Assembly (NCBI GenBank): GCA_015068025.1
Contig: SVLH01000015.1
Location: 1 to 45,781, forward strand
Direction: 5' to 3'
Origin: Oscillospiraceae bacterium
GTDB taxonomy: Bacteria > Bacillota > Clostridia > Oscillospirales > Oscillospiraceae
DNA length: 45,781 bases
Shown: one piece after another, positions 22,301 through 28,008 of the stretch
Layout: every line of letters begins with the position of its first letter
Numbering within the stretch: the stretch's first letter is position 1
The notes under the pieces: generated by a model
The model's database searches: none
What the model saw: the letters and a program-made list of their open reading frames with translations, nothing else
What the model was told of the DNA's origin: nothing
Program-made: the position numbers and the translations under genes

Positions 22301-24763
22301 TTACTTCTTCTCGATGAACAGGTAGTCGACGTCACCGTCAGAGTCGGTGTCGTACGGCCAAGCGTAGTCGTTGGCATCCTCGGTCAGATCGGCCTCGGTC
22401 CAGATGGTGGTGGTGCTGCCGCTGCAGTAGACGATGGTGACATCCTCGTCCAGAGCATAGTTGGCGGCCTGAGTGCCGTCGGTGATGCCCAGGATCAGCA
22501 GGCCGTCGACATAGTCGATGCCGCACTTGGCAGAAGCCTGATAGTAAGCAGAGGGAGTGATGCGGTCAGCGGCATCCAGCACATAGTAGCCATCCTCGTT
22601 GATGGTGTACTCAGTGAACAGGACAACGCGGCGGTCCAGAGTGGCGTAGGAAGCGGTATCCAGCTTGATCTCCTTCACAGCGCCGTCAACGACAACGTTG
22701 AACTGATACCAAGAACCGTTGTTGTCGGTGTACTTGGTGGGGCCGGTGGTGTGGCGGTTGACGATGATGACGTCTTCCTTGCCAGCGCCGGTATCAACGG
22801 TCAGACCCTCGGCATCGATGTAAACGAAGGCAGCAGCCTTGGCGTTCTCTTCGACGATGCAGTCAGAGAAGGTGGAACCCTGGGTGATGGTGGGGATGGT
22901 CTTGTAGCCGACATAGACGGTGTAGACATCCTTGCCGTCCTTCACGGTCTTGATGATGAAGGTGGTAGCGTTGTTGACAGCCACGTTAGCGCCGTTGACC
23001 TTCACGGTGACAGCACCCTTGGTGGTGGCAGCGTTGGCCTTGGCAGCGATGTTGGTGGTATCAGCGTCCTCCAGGACATACTCGCCATCGTTGTTGATGG
23101 TGTAGGTCACGAAATCGTTGATAGCGTCGGTGTACAGCTCGGCAGTCTCGACAACCTCAACGGTGCCGTCGGTGAACAGCAGCTGAGCGTAAGCAACAGC
23201 ATCACCGAACAGAGCGGAGGTATCGTTCTTGGCATCGAGGACGTAAGCGTACTTGTTGACCTCGGTGACCTTCTCGGACCACAGATAGTAGCCGTTGCGG
23301 TCCAGATAGACCTTGACGGTATCGCCAACGGTCAGCTGGGTGGAAGCGGAAGCGCCGGCAGCGGGCCAAGCATAGTTGATGCGGAAGTCATCAACAAAGA
23401 TGTCATAACGGCCGGAGTTCAGCTGATACTTGGTGACCTCACCGGTCTTGTACTCGGCCAGCTTCACGTCGACAACGGCGTTGGTCTTCTTGGAGTAGGT
23501 GAAGGTGACGATGTCGCCCTTCTCGAACTCGTCGGTGGTGAAGTCCACAGTGCCCTGAACGGGGAAAGCAGAGCCAACAGTCTCCAGAGTAACGGAGCGC
23601 TTGACGGCGCCGGAAGCGGCGTTCACGGTCTTGACCTTGGCGATATACTCGTCAATGCGGATGACGGAGACCTTGGGAGCGTCGGTGACGTCAGCGCGAT
23701 AGTAGATCTCCCAGCCGGAACGGTAGGCAGAGCTATCGACATAGTTGGTGCCGTCGTTAGCCATCAGCTCAGCGGTGTACTTGCCGTTGGTAGCGGTGAA
23801 GGCAGCCTCGGTCTTGGCAGCGGCGGTGGTGCCGTTGTCATAACGGATGTACTTCACGGCCTCGTCGGTCAGGCCCAGAGCGTTGTACACGGTGTTGCGA
23901 TACTGGGCAACAGTGTAGGTCACGTCAGCAGCGGGGATGTACAGAGCGATCTCCTTGCCGTCGTTCTTCCACTGGGTAGCGGGACGCATGAAAGCATCAT
24001 AGGTGTTCTCAACCTTGGTCACCTTGGGGAATGCCTTCTCGACCAGCTGCATCTTGCCGTCAGCCTCGCCGCCCTTGAAGTGAGCGCCGGTGTTCTCAAC
24101 GACGGTAGCCTCGGAGGTGTTGTTGATGACAACATCGCCGATGGTGATGCTGGACTGGCTCTTGTACTCAACCATGTTAGCCTGCAGGGCGTTCAGGATG
24201 ATCTGAGCAGCCTGCTCGCGGGTGATCAGAGCGGCGGAGTTGAAGTTCTCCAGACCGTTCAGCAGACCAGCGCTCAGGGCGTCGATAGCGACGGCGACCT
24301 GCCAGCCGGTAACATTGTAGCCCTCAACGTCAGCCTTGTAGCCCAGAACGCCCAGAACCTGCTTCAGGAAGGCGTCGCCGGTCAGCTTGTTGGAGGGGCC
24401 GAAGGTGCCGTTGCCGTAACCGCCAACGATGCCCTCGTCCTTCAGGTAGCTGATGTAGCCAGCGAAGGTGCTGCCGGCGGGGACATCAGAGAAGGCAGAG
24501 GTCTTGGGCAGCTTGGCAGCCAGATCGGCGCCCAGCTTGACGCCGGCCAGGATCTTGGCAGCAGCGCCGCGGGTCAGGTTGTCCTGAGGCATGAAAGCGC
24601 CATTGTTGCCGCTGACGATGCCCAGAGCGGAGATCACGTCGACAGCTTCAGCATAGATGGGATCGATGGAAGCTTCGTCCTTGAAATCCGCGGCACCGGC
24701 GCTGATGGTGACCAGAGACATGGCCATAACCAGAGCCAGAACCAGAGAAAGGAACTTCTTCAT
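22301..24763 (-). CDS. Large SLH-domain S-layer-like protein
   Basis: 820 residues. The signal peptide MKKFLSLVLALVMAMSLVTISAGA is nearly the same as that of the SLH protein at 26577-27398. Residues ~25-195 hold three SLH repeats (DPIYAEAVDVISALGIVSGNN, FSDVPAGSTFAGYISYLKDEGIVGGYGNGTF, and a third ending ITREQAAQIILNAL). The remaining ~620 residues are beta-rich, Val/Thr/Asp-rich with no Cys-rich pattern and no enzyme motif I recognise, as expected for an S-layer protein. Codon use is strongly biased to a few C-ending codons, suggesting very high expression. ATG 24763 has TAGGAGG 10 nt upstream. Preceded by a conserved structured leader RNA. Confidence 0.87.
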   Translation of the reverse strand: MKKFLSLVLALVMAMSLVTISAGAADFKDEASIDPIYAEAVDVISALGIVSGNNGAFMPQDNLTRGAAAKILAGVKLGADLAAKLPKTSAFSDVPAGSTFAGYISYLKDEGIVGGYGNGTFGPSNKLTGDAFLKQVLGVLGYKADVEGYNVTGWQVAVAIDALSAGLLNGLENFNSAALITREQAAQIILNALQANMVEYKSQSSITIGDVVINNTSEATVVENTGAHFKGGEADGKMQLVEKAFPKVTKVENTYDAFMRPATQWKNDGKEIALYIPAADVTYTVAQYRNTVYNALGLTDEAVKYIRYDNGTTAAAKTEAAFTATNGKYTAELMANDGTNYVDSSAYRSGWEIYYRADVTDAPKVSVIRIDEYIAKVKTVNAASGAVKRSVTLETVGSAFPVQGTVDFTTDEFEKGDIVTFTYSKKTNAVVDVKLAEYKTGEVTKYQLNSGRYDIFVDDFRINYAWPAAGASASTQLTVGDTVKVYLDRNGYYLWSEKVTEVNKYAYVLDAKNDTSALFGDAVAYAQLLFTDGTVEVVETAELYTDAINDFVTYTINNDGEYVLEDADTTNIAAKANAATTKGAVTVKVNGANVAVNNATTFIIKTVKDGKDVYTVYVGYKTIPTITQGSTFSDCIVEENAKAAAFVYIDAEGLTVDTGAGKEDVIIVNRHTTGPTKYTDNNGSWYQFNVVVDGAVKEIKLDTASYATLDRRVVLFTEYTINEDGYYVLDAADRITPSAYYQASAKCGIDYVDGLLILGITDGTQAANYALDEDVTIVYCSGSTTTIWTEADLTEDANDYAWPYDTDSDGDVDYLFIEKK

Positions 24764-24789
24764 AGGTGGTTGTCCTCCTAATAAAATAT

Positions 24790-24980
24790 TTGCAACCCTC
24801 CGCATGGCTTCCCTCACCCGTTTCCGGGATTCGTGTCGGGGCTAGCCTGCCCAGAAACAGTAAAACCATTTCTCGCTCCCGTTCCACCCTTTCCGGGTTG
24901 AGTCGGGACGGCCGGTCCGGGAACGTTTGGCCTACACCAGTCTCGGCTTCGGACTCCGGATTCCACGCCTCGGTTTGCAA
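24790..24980 (-). ncRNA. Structured 5' leader RNA of the large SLH gene (candidate riboswitch, copy 1)
   Basis: About 191 nt bounded by a closing helix TTGCAAACC (24980-24972) with GGGTTGCAA (24798-24790). It shares long identical blocks with the leader at 27422-27624: GACTGGTGTAGG, CGTTCC, CGGGAGCG, then GGGCAGGCTAGCCCCGAC and CACGAATCCCGGA. Internal helices CGTTCC/GGAACG and GAAA..TTTC are possible. The closing helix ends 14 nt before the TAGGAGG ribosome site, which allows control of translation. Its segments CGTG-x-AATC, GTAGG and GCTAGCCCCG loosely recall the c-di-AMP (ydaO-yuaA) riboswitch, but the middle does not fit, so the class is open. Confidence 0.6.
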
Positions 24981-25036
24981 GGTTAATGTATCCGAAAAAA
25001 ATCTCCTTTGCAAGAAGTTTTTGGCCTTTTTTACTT

Positions 25037-25097
25037 ACTCGTAACGCAGAGATAAATGTTGCGCACCATTTGTACGGATTCGTAAATATTTGTCACA
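25037..25097 (-). promoter_or_regulatory. Shared upstream element of the SLH genes (copy 1)
   Basis: Minus strand TGTGACAAATATTTAC (25097-25082), then 36 bp, then GTTACGAGT (25045-25037). The same pair at nearly the same spacing occurs upstream of the second SLH gene. No clear -10 box could be fixed here. Confidence 0.5.
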
Positions 25098-25107
25098 CTT
25101 CCTGTAA

Positions 25108-25139
25108 CAAAAAGCGGGCAGGAAACACCATCCCTGCCC
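25108..25139 (-). terminator. Terminator after the double pseudo-recombinase gene
   Basis: Stem GGGCAGG/CCTGCCC with a 10-nt loop and CTTTTTGTT tail on the minus strand, 16 nt past the stop. Confidence 0.8.
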
Positions 25140-25154
25140 ACTTCGCGTGCTTGC

Positions 25155-26435
25155 TCAACTAGATATAGTTTCCTGTTCCGGCAGCGTGTACCACTGCTTT
25201 TCGCGGTGCAGCCGCCCCTCCTTCACCATGGTCTGCAGGATCCAGCCGCACTGCTGCGGCGCGATGCGGAGAAGTGCCGCCAGATCCTGCCGGTAGGCGC
25301 CGCCCTCCCTTTCCAGGTAGGCGCGGATCAAATCATACTGCTCCTCCGGCGGCACAACGGTGCCCGCGGGATAATACTCCGCGCCGATGCGCACCAGCTT
25401 CCCCTGCTCCGTCAGGCGGCGCAGGCGGCGGTATACCGTTGTCTTTCCCTCGTGCAGCAGTTCCATGGCTTCGTTCCGGTTCACGTGTCCTGTGCGGGCG
25501 GCATACGCAAGGATTGCCGCGCCGCCCTCGCTGCGCTGCTCCTCCCGTTTCAGGTCGCGGAGTTTGATGCGCTCCATTCCGCCCCGGATCAGCGCCATCC
25601 GCACAACGCGGGAGAGGTAGCTGACATCAAAAGGTGTCTGCGCATTCCGGCTCAGCAGGATCTGCGGCGGAGCGTCGGGACGCCGCCGGTCATACGCCTG
25701 CCGCAGAAGCACCCGCATCGTATCGTCCACGGCTTCCTGACGGTCGGACAGGCGGATCACGCCCGCCGTCCAGTCCACCTGCCGCCATTCCAGCGCCACC
25801 AGTTCTTCCAGTTCCAGACCCAATTTCCACGCCAGCCAGATGGCAAGACCCGCCGGTGCGCCCGTCGTGCAGGCCAGCGCCTCCAATTCCACCGCTTCCA
25901 CCCGCGCGTGCTGTTTTCTCTCCGCCGCAGCGGCGGCATCCGGACAGACGCAGGGCAGGTACGTGCTGTTCAGCGTGGCCAGCGTCAGTCCGCTGATGCG
26001 CGCCACCCATGCGCTGTCATGCAGCGTCAGCTGCCGGAGAACGAAGTCCTCCCGCAGGTCTTTCAGCGTGATGTCTTTCAGCGCAGCCTCCGTGCCCAGC
26101 GCTGCCTGTGCGGTTTTGGATATGTAAACGCGGTGCATATGCGCACGCCGGCGATCCGAGATCACCACGTATTCGGACACCCTGTGAAACTGCCGTCCCT
26201 GCCGCATCTGCAAACATCTTACTGTGTCTGCATCCAGCGGAACTCTGCGGTCAGAAAGGCGAAGCGCTCCCGTTTCAAAGGAAATGTCGTTCCATTTCAG
26301 CCCGTGCATCTCATCCAGCGACAAGCCCATATTCCAGGCCAGCCGCAAAATCAATCCCGCGCAGGTGTCTTCGTTCCGCCCCAACAGGCGGCGCATCGCC
26401 TCCCCGTCGGGTCGGCGAAAACTCTTTTTCCCCAT
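25155..26435 (-). CDS. Protein with two degenerate tyrosine-recombinase folds and a C-terminal winged-helix region
   Basis: 426 residues. Two repeats have the look of the catalytic domain of tyrosine recombinases: LILRLAWNMGLSLDEMHGLKWNDIS with LKDLRED, and LAIWLAWKLGLELEELVALEWRQVD with LRDLKRE. In active enzymes the first block carries the catalytic Arg (GLR) and the second an HxLRH box; here Arg is Ser in one copy and Glu in the other, and the box His residues are Lys/Glu and Arg/Arg. No active-site Tyr context is evident. The C-terminal ~110 residues (RNEAMELLHEGKTTVYRRLRRLTEQGKLVRIG) look like one or two winged helices. So it is probably a DNA-binding regulator, not an integrase. ATG 26435 has AGGAGGT 9 nt upstream. 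Confidence 0.7.
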   Translation of the reverse strand: MGKKSFRRPDGEAMRRLLGRNEDTCAGLILRLAWNMGLSLDEMHGLKWNDISFETGALRLSDRRVPLDADTVRCLQMRQGRQFHRVSEYVVISDRRRAHMHRVYISKTAQAALGTEAALKDITLKDLREDFVLRQLTLHDSAWVARISGLTLATLNSTYLPCVCPDAAAAAERKQHARVEAVELEALACTTGAPAGLAIWLAWKLGLELEELVALEWRQVDWTAGVIRLSDRQEAVDDTMRVLLRQAYDRRRPDAPPQILLSRNAQTPFDVSYLSRVVRMALIRGGMERIKLRDLKREEQRSEGGAAILAYAARTGHVNRNEAMELLHEGKTTVYRRLRRLTEQGKLVRIGAEYYPAGTVVPPEEQYDLIRAYLEREGGAYRQDLAALLRIAPQQCGWILQTMVKEGRLHREKQWYTLPEQETISS

Positions 26436-26490
26436 GTCAGTTCCACCTCCTGGCTCCGCCCGCCAACAGTGCGGCCGCTTCTTTTCTTCC

Positions 26491-26519
26491 TTTTTACCAC
26501 AAATTTTCCGTTTTCGCAA
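26491..26519 (-). promoter_or_regulatory. Possible promoter of the pseudo-recombinase gene
   Basis: Minus strand TTGCGA (26519-26514), 17-bp spacer, TAAAAA (26496-26491). Both boxes are imperfect. Confidence 0.4.
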
Positions 26520-26527
26520 CGCGCAAC

Positions 26528-26564
26528 AAAAAAAGACTCCGGACCGGAGTCCGGAGTCTTTTTA
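26528..26564 (-). terminator. Terminator of the smaller SLH gene
   Basis: Perfect stem GACTCCGGA/TCCGGAGTC flanked by A-run and T-run (works in both directions), 13 nt past the stop at 26577. Confidence 0.9.
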
Positions 26565-26576
26565 TTCATTGGAGAA

Positions 26577-27398
26577 TTACTCCAGGATGAAAGCGACCTG
26601 CTCGTCGTTCAGGAACCAGCCGGTGCCTTCGCGATCCAGGAAGTCGGTAGCCTTGGCATCCTTCTTCAGACCGGGCATGCTCTTCTCGCACAGCTGCATG
26701 ATCTCGTCAGCAGCAGCGCCGGCGGTGATGTCATAGTGAGCAGCCTTGGTGCCGGCAACGGGAGTAGCCTTGCCGTCAGCATAGGTAACAACAGCGCTGG
26801 TCAGAGCGTTCATCATGATCTGAGCGCACTCGTCACGCTGAAGTGCCCACCACTCTTCCTGCTCGCGGTCAGCGCTGTCAGCACGGAAATCGGCAATGCC
26901 ATCCATCAGGCCAGCGGCCTTGGCGTCGGTGCGGACTTCCCACTGCCAGTTGGCGCCGGTGTAGTCCTTCTTGTAGCCCAGGACGCCCAGAGCCATCTTC
27001 AGCATGCCGGCAGCAGAGATCAGATCGCCGGGCTTGAAGGTGCCGTCTTCATAACCGCTGATCAGGCCCTGCTCTGCCAGATAGTTGACAAAGGGAGCAT
27101 AGCGATAGTCGGGGGTAACATCCTTGAAGACAGTCTTGCCGGTGGGCAGCTTGGCAGCCTTATCAGCGCCGAGCATGCAATAAACCAGGCACTTGGCAGC
27201 GAAACCGCGGCTCATCTGGTTCTGAGGAGCGTAGGTACCGTCTTCAAAACCGGGGTGGATGTTCAGGCCGTGCAGCAGCTCAGCAGCTTCGAGATACTCG
27301 ATGTTTGCGCTGTCGGAGAAAGATGCAGCGCCGGCGCTGATAGTGACCACAGACATGGCCATAACCAGAACCAGGACCAGAGAAAGGAACTTCTTCAT
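26577..27398 (-). CDS. Small SLH-domain surface protein
   Basis: 273 residues, essentially a signal peptide (MKKFLSLVLVLVMAMSVVTISAGA) plus three SLH-like repeats (YLEAAELLHGLNIHPGFEDGTYAP, VTPDYRYAPFVNYLAEQGLISGYEDGTFKPGD, and a third with RDECAQIMMNAL) and a short acidic tail. It lacks the large C-terminal part of the S-layer-like paralogue at 22301-24763. Possibly a minor wall protein or one that competes for the same wall polymer. TAGGAGG lies 10 nt before the ATG. It has the same kind of leader RNA and upstream element as its paralogue. Confidence 0.87.
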   Translation of the reverse strand: MKKFLSLVLVLVMAMSVVTISAGAASFSDSANIEYLEAAELLHGLNIHPGFEDGTYAPQNQMSRGFAAKCLVYCMLGADKAAKLPTGKTVFKDVTPDYRYAPFVNYLAEQGLISGYEDGTFKPGDLISAAGMLKMALGVLGYKKDYTGANWQWEVRTDAKAAGLMDGIADFRADSADREQEEWWALQRDECAQIMMNALTSAVVTYADGKATPVAGTKAAHYDITAGAAADEIMQLCEKSMPGLKKDAKATDFLDREGTGWFLNDEQVAFILE

Positions 27399-27421
27399 AC
27401 TTGGGGATCCTCCTAAAAAGT

Positions 27422-27624
27422 ATTTGCAGCATCAGCGTGTCCATCTTCACCCGCTCCGGGATTCGTGTCGGGGCTAGCCTGCCCGGAAACGATTTTGCTT
27501 CGCAAAACCACTTCCGCGCTCCCGCCCCACCTCTTCCGGATCGAGCCGGAAAAGCCGGCACAGGAACGGTCGACCTACACCAGTCCCGGTATCAGGATCG
27601 GGCTTTCACGCCTAGTCTGCAGAT
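27422..27624 (-). ncRNA. Structured 5' leader RNA of the small SLH gene (candidate riboswitch, copy 2)
   Basis: About 203 nt closed by ATCTGCAG (27624-27617) pairing with CTGCAAAT (27429-27422), with one mismatch. The pairing partners differ from copy 1 but complementarity is kept, which supports a real helix. A hairpin CCCG..CGGG replaces a differing one in copy 1, and the hairpin GGTTTTGCGAAGCAAAAT is longer than its copy-1 match. The blocks GACTGGTGTAGG, GGGCAGGCTAGCCCCGAC and CACGAATCCCGGA are unchanged. Ends about 8 nt before TAGGAGG. Confidence 0.6.
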
Positions 27625-27678
27625 CTAATTTATCAGAAAATATCCCCAGCCGCAATATGTTTCCATTCTTTTTTCTTC

Positions 27679-27740
27679 ACTCGTAACACGCCTGAAAATA
27701 GTATCATCTAATAGCACTTAATGGTAAATATTTTGTTACA
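27679..27740 (-). promoter_or_regulatory. Shared upstream element and promoter of the SLH genes (copy 2)
   Basis: Minus strand TGTAACAAAATATTTACC (27740-27723), then 35 bp, then GTTACGAGT (27687-27679). TTTACC could act as a -35 with GATACT 17 bp downstream as -10. The element pair matches the copy at 25037-25097. Confidence 0.5.
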
Positions 27741-27882
27741 TTTAGCAATCTAAAATCGCGCCGCACCTTCTCACGCGCCTCTTTCGCCCCGGTGCAGACC
27801 GGTTAGAGACCGTTTGGGGGAGCCGTTATCCACGTACAAAAAGGCGTGTGGCGCAAATGCAGCCACGTCCGCCGTTCAAAGC
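27741..27882. other. Intergenic stretch with no recognised feature
   Basis: I see no convincing gene, hairpin or repeat here between the SLH upstream element and the tRNA-Val terminator. Confidence 0.5.
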
Positions 27883-27911
27883 AAAAACCCCAAAGCCTTT
27901 CGGCTTTGGGG
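27883..27911 (-). terminator. Terminator of tRNA-Val
   Basis: Perfect stem CCCCAAAGCC/GGCTTTGGGG, GAAA loop and TTTTT tail on the minus strand. Confidence 0.9.
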
Positions 27912-27915
27912 TTCA

Positions 27916-27992
27916 TGGTGGACGATACAGGACTCGAACCTGTGACCCCCTGCACGTCAAGCAGGTGCTCTAGCCAGCTGAGCTAATCGTCC
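27916..27992 (-). tRNA. tRNA-Val (anticodon GAC)
   Basis: 77 nt with complete cloverleaf: acceptor GGACGAT/ATCGTCC, D arm AGCTCAGCTGGCTAGAGC, anticodon stem CCTGC/GCAGG with loop TTGACGT (anticodon GAC), T-arm with GGTTCGAGTCC, discriminator A and encoded CCA. Confidence 0.96.
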
Positions 27993-28008
27993 GAAGCGGA
28001 ACGAAGTT

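Follow-up and report, generated by a model that had tools for sequence, protein, structure and literature searches.

The window analysed here is a stretch of 45,781 nucleotides (nt) from an Oscillospiraceae bacterium (contig SVLH01000015.1 of assembly GCA_015068025.1). On its minus strand, two genes for S-layer-type (SLH) proteins each follow a long leader, and we refer to these leaders as A and B. Comparison with homologues makes it nearly certain that they belong to a real family of structured RNAs. The most telling part of the leaders, which was absent from a preliminary description of this DNA, is a palindromic apical loop. The 3' side of this loop carries the hexamer GCUAGC, a perfect 6-nt palindrome. 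We give even chances to the proposal that the leaders form the 5' ends of SLH mRNAs and that their GCUAGC loops kiss between molecules, with the pairing tied to the amount of mRNA.

22301..24763, minus strand: SLH gene A, 820 amino acids with two SLH stretches (Pfam PF00395, 2.7e-21)
24790..24980, minus strand: leader A, from the closing-helix arm TTGCAAACC (24980-24972) to the arm GGGTTGCAA (24798-24790)
24838..24852, minus strand: apical hairpin of A, GGG-CAG-GCUAGC-CCC, supported by homologues
24841..24846, minus strand: palindromic hexamer GCUAGC of A, the proposed kissing loop
26577..27398, minus strand: SLH gene B, 273 amino acids (Pfam PF00395, 1.3e-18)
27422..27624, minus strand: leader B, from the arm ATCTGCAG (27624-27617) to the arm CTGCAAAT (27429-27422)
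27470..27484, minus strand: apical hairpin of B, GGG-CAG-GCUAGC-CCC, by homology to A and to relatives
27473..27478, minus strand: palindromic hexamer GCUAGC of B

Leaders A and B hold the only two copies of GCTAGC in the window. As the preliminary description had noticed, the two leaders share unchanged blocks: they are 71-72% identical, and both contain GACTGGTGTAGG and GGGCAGGCTAGCCCCGACACGAATCCCGG.

The hexamer is conserved or replaced by another palindrome

The less biased evidence about the hexamer comes from searches that leave the loop free. We fixed the arms AGATAC and GTATGT and left 11-18 positions free. Within the genus, this gave 74 matches: 59 with GCTAGC, four with GCATGC, one odd leader (in genome G293), and 10 others. 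The reversed pattern gave 10 matches. Among 270 genomes of the family, there were 57 matches (12 with GCTAGC, three with GCATGC, and 42 others), as compared to 29 for the reversed pattern; five rows from four genomes that were already in the genus count were removed from this tally. We read just one of the matches that are not elements (L209), and it lies inside a gene. Overall, the searches found 71 leaders with GCTAGC, seven with GCATGC, and the one odd leader. The one-step intermediates GCAAGC and GCTTGC do not occur among the matches.

GCAUGC differs from GCUAGC by the exchange of UA for AU and is likewise fully self-complementary. The seven GCATGC leaders are from six genomes in three genera. 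Six of them lie before an SLH-like start, and the other (L205) is cut by the end of its contig. For example, the leaders L075 (GCTAGC) and L206 (GCATGC) are identical over 47 nt except for the change from TA to AT. In five of the six GCATGC genomes, a search with GGNNNGGCTAGCCNC gave three hits, which fall at two places in two of them and lack a leader context; leaders of another shape could escape this search.

The hexamer is followed by C in all 60 of the aligned cores (see below) and is preceded by G in at least 90%. The 5' linker of the loop has about 3 to 6 nt in clear hairpins and is longer where extra hairpins branch off.

No further copy of a leader's own hexamer was found downstream (117 leaders, 84,304 nt of sense sequence). 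However, CTAG is rare downstream in general (5 occurrences versus 379 of CATG in the 84 kb downstream of 118 leaders), so the missing second copy says little about a partner within the same molecule. Because CTAG is rare and GCTAGC is absent from these regions, the hexamer is a rare word outside of the leaders.

The stem changes and continues to pair

We aligned the ungapped cores of the apical stem (alignment A3). Contexts were chosen by the 5' arm (or by both arms for three rows of the g81 type) and had to contain GC(TA or AT)GC; this requirement by itself makes the hexamer pair at 100% in the alignment. Dropping one misregistered row (L156) reduced the alignment from 61 to 60 cores. Standard pairs make up 91.8% of the cells (85.3% if shuffled), eight of the 13 pairs show double changes, and there are 58 double-change cells versus 18.1 if shuffled. 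The covariation score is 0.236 versus 0.114 for shuffled cores (standard deviation 0.009; 0 of 500 shuffles as high), and slid registers reach at most 0.111; these numbers overstate independence because the shuffling keeps relatedness and because the alignment was partly chosen by an arm.

The upstream regions also contain several unrelated stems, and this observation is free of the selection weakness of the alignment. In one genome (G323), five leaders (L102, L132, L133, L135, and L136) have five different stems and one hexamer. By eye, two perfect stems are GCCCGGG-AUG-GCUAGC-CCCGGGC (L112) and CGCCGGC-AAG-GCUAGC-GCCGGCG (L121), and L133 has CUAUGGAAGU-AUG-GCUAGC-AUUUCCAUAG with one G-U pair. 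All of the 61 cores except the out-of-register L156 retain a G.G mismatch. The homologues and their covariation support the earlier suggestion of functional structured leader RNAs before paralogous SLH genes.

These data also bear on whether the element acts as DNA, either as the operator of a dimeric repressor or as a recombinase site. Its centre is palindromic, and a tyrosine-recombinase-like gene adjoins the leaders (see below). But the flanking arms vary within one genome yet still pair, the one-sided 5' linker would make the site asymmetric, and the conserved G.G mismatch is a feature of a folded strand. We consider a DNA site to be highly improbable.

Occurrence of the leader

Of the 86 genomes from the genus, 24 contain GGCTAGCCCCGACACGAA with up to two mismatches, at 35 places including those in the window (nine for the reversed control). 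Where coding starts are present at these places, they resemble those of the SLH genes in the window. Many of these places were found again next to SLH protein matches. Some genus members have a short form that lacks the long branch seen in the window: CCAGG-C-UU-GA-UGU-GGG-AUCG-GCUAGC-CCCG-ACA-CG-AA-U-CCUGG.

Elsewhere in the family, exact matches to GGGANCGGCTAGCCNCG were found in 20 of 400 genomes. Nineteen of these are leader-like, and by eye (rather than by Pfam scan) their readable genes are SLH-like. The other (L083 in G452) was rejected as a leader based on its context. A pattern search of the family with one mismatch allowed gave mostly noise. A covariance model of the short genus core (R1) recovered 5 of the 400 family genomes, and the genome of the window was not among them, so the pattern searches did better; this poor recovery arises because the first pass scores few candidates per genome. 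Across the order, GGGANNGGCTAGCCMCG was found in none of 394 genomes, which included 351 from other families, with six hits for the reversed control. This pattern is narrow (it matched none of the 43 family genomes that were drawn), so the order-wide result leaves room for divergent relatives. Plasmid records gave no match. A syntenic relative was found in Oscillospiraceae bacterium SIG468 (SVKT01000001.1), with long pieces that are 82-90% identical.

We also searched for the SLH N-terminus, which is blind to the leader, and found matches in 72 of the 86 genus genomes. Upstream regions were read for part of these matches, and copies that are identical to pattern-found loci had been merged earlier. 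Among 102 distinct upstream regions, 72 contain GCTAGC, two contain GCATGC, and 28 contain neither, so the element is present at many, but not all, of the SLH genes of the genus. (The 102 are 104 protein-found rows minus two non-SLH starts, L106 on the minus strand and L114; L186 is kept among the 102, as a miss, since the SLH query matches it.) The 28 regions without either hexamer comprise leaderless copies, other types of leader, L166, L203, and a few that are unassigned. Long leaders that lack the palindrome hairpin fall into at least two further kinds (L173, L179, L182, L185, and L188; and L190, L194, L196, and L200). In all, 146 upstream regions were compared, which are a mixture of pattern-found and protein-found loci.

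Five contigs from the viral collection IMG/VR (L227-L231) also carry the leader. An SLH-type start is readable in four of them (just 22 residues in one), and the fifth leader is at the contig edge. These contigs may be host DNA rather than phage.

Folding, the closing helix, and transcript ends

Leader A folds at -84.1 kcal/mol (z = -2.83) and leader B at -98.2 kcal/mol (z = -4.80), each relative to 200 dinucleotide shuffles. The other features of the leaders and their surroundings are as follows.

24774..24779, minus strand: Shine-Dalgarno AGGAGG of SLH gene A, outside the structure
24853..24930, minus strand: branch insert of leader A, with extra hairpins; it measures 3-5 nt in short forms from the genus and more in long forms
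24931..24942, minus strand: conserved block GACTGGTGTAGG of A; its GTGT (24937-24934) is opposite ACAC (24836-24833)
24985..24990, minus strand: -10-like TACATT of leader A, by eye
25008..25013, minus strand: -35-like TTGCAA of leader A, by eye; 17 nt before TACATT and missed by a consensus scan
26534..26552, minus strand: terminator-like hairpin with a T tail, 3' of SLH gene B, from a scan of 24700-28000
27409..27414, minus strand: Shine-Dalgarno AGGAGG of SLH gene B
27485..27515, minus strand: extra hairpin of B (GGAAGTGGTTTTGCGAAGCAAAATCGTTTCC)
27574..27585, minus strand: conserved block GACTGGTGTAGG of B
27627..27632, minus strand: -10-like TAAATT of leader B, by eye
27650..27655, minus strand: -35-like TTGCGG of leader B, by eye

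By eye, the closing helix has one mismatch in nine pairs in A and one mismatch in eight pairs in B. The preliminary description proposed that its arms vary together, and a column-wise test bears this out. At five variable columns across 17 distinct genus leaders (24 of 26 leaders were used, including A and B, with L034 and L039 omitted), 53 of 85 cells pair, as compared to 45.4 if partners are shuffled, and just one of 2,000 shuffles was as high. Two of the five columns are poor (5 of 17 each). A cruder test based on the longest run of pairs gave a weak result (mean of 6.0 versus 5.3 for shuffled and 5.8 for swapped arms), whereas the column-wise result is clear.

The GTGT/ACAC helix appears in relatives as UGU/ACA, UGC/GCA, or UAC/GUA. 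It is present in the minimum structure of B and absent from that of A. The inner hairpin, from GTGTAGG to GGGCAG, is 78 nt in A versus 89 nt in B, so the reported difference in length is correct. When the contexts of the hexamer were folded locally, 42 of 129 satisfied a strict "open loop" rule, versus 107 of 2,580 shuffled ones. A looser measure gave 17.1 spanning pairs versus 10.2 if shuffled.

Promoter-like hexamers with 17-nt spacers lie just upstream of both leaders, so the closing helix would start near the first transcribed base. For leader A, the 5' end of the transcript would be at the closing helix if transcription starts about 7 nt downstream of TACATT. At the other end, both leaders stop short of a free AGGAGG. 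The terminator-like hairpin after SLH gene B suggests that A and B are probably on separate mRNAs; the scan of 24700-28000 found three terminator-like sites versus 2.9 expected by chance, which makes such a site weak evidence by itself.

An apparent extent from the putative transcript start to just before a free Shine-Dalgarno, with a closing helix that covaries, would also suit a plain stabilizing rod at the 5' end of an abundant mRNA, with the palindrome being incidental. However, a rod has no need for a hexamer that is kept while the stem is replaced, and a pure stabilizer does not need double changes that preserve a palindrome. We view this explanation as rather improbable.

Two side observations concern the regions flanking the leaders. 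In several family members (such as L098, L127, L169, and L211), a second small hairpin of the GGCGG..CCGCC or GGGGAGTGTATCTCTCC type can be seen by eye between the leader and the Shine-Dalgarno. Also by eye, words like GTTACA/TGTAAC repeat upstream of the -35 in many leaders (for example, at 25020-25125 in the window and in L204-L223). Perhaps these are operators of a shared regulator.

Known RNA families

The ydaO-yuaA riboswitch, which responds to c-di-AMP, is a leader RNA near cell-envelope genes. The preliminary description saw a resemblance between the leaders and this class, but the likeness is confined to short runs of letters: its covariance model (RF00379) did not match at the gathering threshold, at E up to 10 for both leaders, or at E up to 5 for seven homologous loci. 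Using all of the Rfam models on both leaders, as had been proposed, gave no plausible match at E up to 10, and no other plausible family was found at the seven loci. Above gathering thresholds, Rfam 15 finds just four tRNAs in the whole window and leaves the leaders unmatched. Given the lack of matches, we reject the ydaO idea.

Could the leader still be a riboswitch that senses a cell-wall or nucleotide signal? The SLH motif has been described from Synergistaceae, Clostridia, and Negativicutes as a candidate riboswitch with 80 examples, about 60% of which are before SLH genes (PMC6429828), and our leaders might be that motif or a relative of it. Like the motif as described there, the leaders precede SLH genes (as identified by Pfam in the window and by the SLH N-terminus or by eye in relatives). 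On the other hand, a scan found no terminator-like site within the window's leaders, the Shine-Dalgarno is outside the structure, and the ydaO model has no match. We consider a riboswitch to be improbable.

The neighbouring gene and pairs of SLH genes

Between the two SLH genes lies a gene of about 425 residues (25155-26438, minus strand). It matches Phage_integrase (1.2e-8), so it is tyrosine-recombinase-like, and has weak winged-helix matches. By eye, its catalytic motif looks lost. At 27 genus leaders (weakly so for L095), a same-strand relative of this gene stops 174-324 nt before the loop. No such relative was found beside a leader in the other genera sampled.

This distribution matters for another explanation, in which an RNA-binding protein, possibly dimeric, recognizes the loop and controls the decay or translation of S-layer mRNA; the symmetry of the protein would keep the hexamer symmetric. 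The hexamer is nearly fixed (71 of 78 palindromic loops are GCUAGC), and the G.G mismatch in 60 of 61 cores suits a shape that is read by a protein. The recombinase-like, helix-turn-helix neighbour is the sole candidate that we checked, and among the genera sampled it accompanies the leader in the window's genus alone. A protein site seems unlikely to us, but less so than the alternatives above.

Four convergent pairs of SLH genes have one copy with the leader hairpin and one without: L095/L150 (G274), L101/L149 (G210), L125/L124 (G082), and L107/L134 (G301). The members of a pair share 16-37 bp right before the start codon, and in three of the four pairs they also share 14-22 bp near -70. Eight of 10 leaderless copies have GCTACC near -120. 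The arrangement resembles an expression site that is switched among S-layer genes by inversion or recombination.

A proposed kissing-loop homodimer

What can be read from the sequences is a structured leader, a covarying stem, a hexamer on the 3' side of the loop, its palindrome, and the replacement of one palindrome by another. A hexamer that is kept self-complementary in the loop of a changeable stem is what a kissing homodimer needs. There is a roughly even chance that the palindromic kissing loop is the working part of the leader.

In the proposed mechanism, each leader would be the structured 5' end of an SLH mRNA, and its core hairpin would display GCUAGC (in rare cases GCAUGC) in the 3' part of its loop. 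Because the hexamer is self-complementary, two leader molecules could kiss, pairing loop to loop between mRNAs of the same gene or with a paralogue that has the same hexamer. The most likely effect is that pairing would be coupled to the amount of mRNA and would protect or tune a very abundant messenger, with the ribosome site left free. We presume that SLH mRNA is abundant because of the type of protein it encodes. As to the effect for the cell, our guess is that the mRNA is protected or controlled in a dose-dependent way, which fits because the leader leaves the ribosome site free.

Retroviral genomes and two fly mRNAs are known to dimerize through loops, and a 2020 review describes functional RNA oligomers as seldom observed in nature (PMC7357161). 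As summarized there, the dimerization initiation site (DIS) of HIV-1 has the palindrome GUGCAC with strictly conserved flanking purines. Like the DIS, our leaders have a 6-nt GC-rich palindrome in the apical loop of a 5' leader, and here the variants keep self-complementarity. Computed duplex energies are -8.2 kcal/mol for GCUAGC and -8.0 kcal/mol for GCAUGC, which are close to the weaker DIS palindrome (-7.9 kcal/mol for GUGCAC by the same computation). The second HIV-1 DIS palindrome, GCGCGC, has -10.9 kcal/mol. The same review describes a conserved 6-nt GC-rich palindromic kissing loop in the oskar mRNA (PMC7357161), but this is in a eukaryotic 3' untranslated region and acts in mRNA localization, whereas our leaders are bacterial and 5'. 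It also describes bacterial leader hairpins, in the guanidine-II riboswitch (mini-ykkC), whose loops kiss via self-complementary letters (PMC7357161). Guanidine-II has two hairpins that form two base pairs and bind a ligand; our leaders have one such hairpin, for which six pairs are proposed in trans. Our searches of an open-licence library listed no dimer of a bacterial SLH leader. In term searches of main texts, PMC6429828 has no "kissing" and uses "palindrom" for another motif (PBC-10) only, and the follow-up surveys PMC11109978 and PMC8632094 do not mention S-layer or SLH.

Several observations weigh against the kissing homodimer. First, of the many possible palindromes just two are found, so there is also constraint on the sequence itself, and the trace attributed to RNA pairing could instead come from a dimeric protein. 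Second, the leaders have a 3' C instead of the flanking purine of the DIS, whose dimerization is proven, whereas we infer dimerization of the leaders in the cell from sequence. Third, the ViennaRNA minimum structures of A and B pair part of the hexamer. Forcing it open costs 4.5 kcal/mol in A and 4.7 kcal/mol in B, and ViennaRNA does not then form the GGG/CCC hairpin in B. Across 135 contexts (at least three of them spurious), 4.0 of the 6 nt are open, versus 2.7 of 6 with shuffled flanks, which is a slight gain. Fourth, one of the five covariation measures, the number of pair types, shows no gain (13 versus 12.1 if shuffled; 190 of 500 shuffles). Finally, other SLH genes in the genus have leaders without the palindrome hairpin, the leader of G293 (L166) has a different loop, and L203 is degenerate.

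In its broadest form, the proposal is that a leader class in several genera of one family homodimerizes via a palindromic kissing loop, that leaders in the same genome have a pairing code in common, and that this code is GCUAGC or GCAUGC, with compensatory double changes between the two in three genera. We judge its chances to be slightly below even. A direct test is possible, since nature already supplies compensatory mutants in the form of the two codes. Kissing would offer a testable mechanism for the published orphan SLH leader RNAs, and, if the proposal is true, RNA-RNA pairing would be a way for the cell to sense or fix the level of mRNA for its surface proteins.

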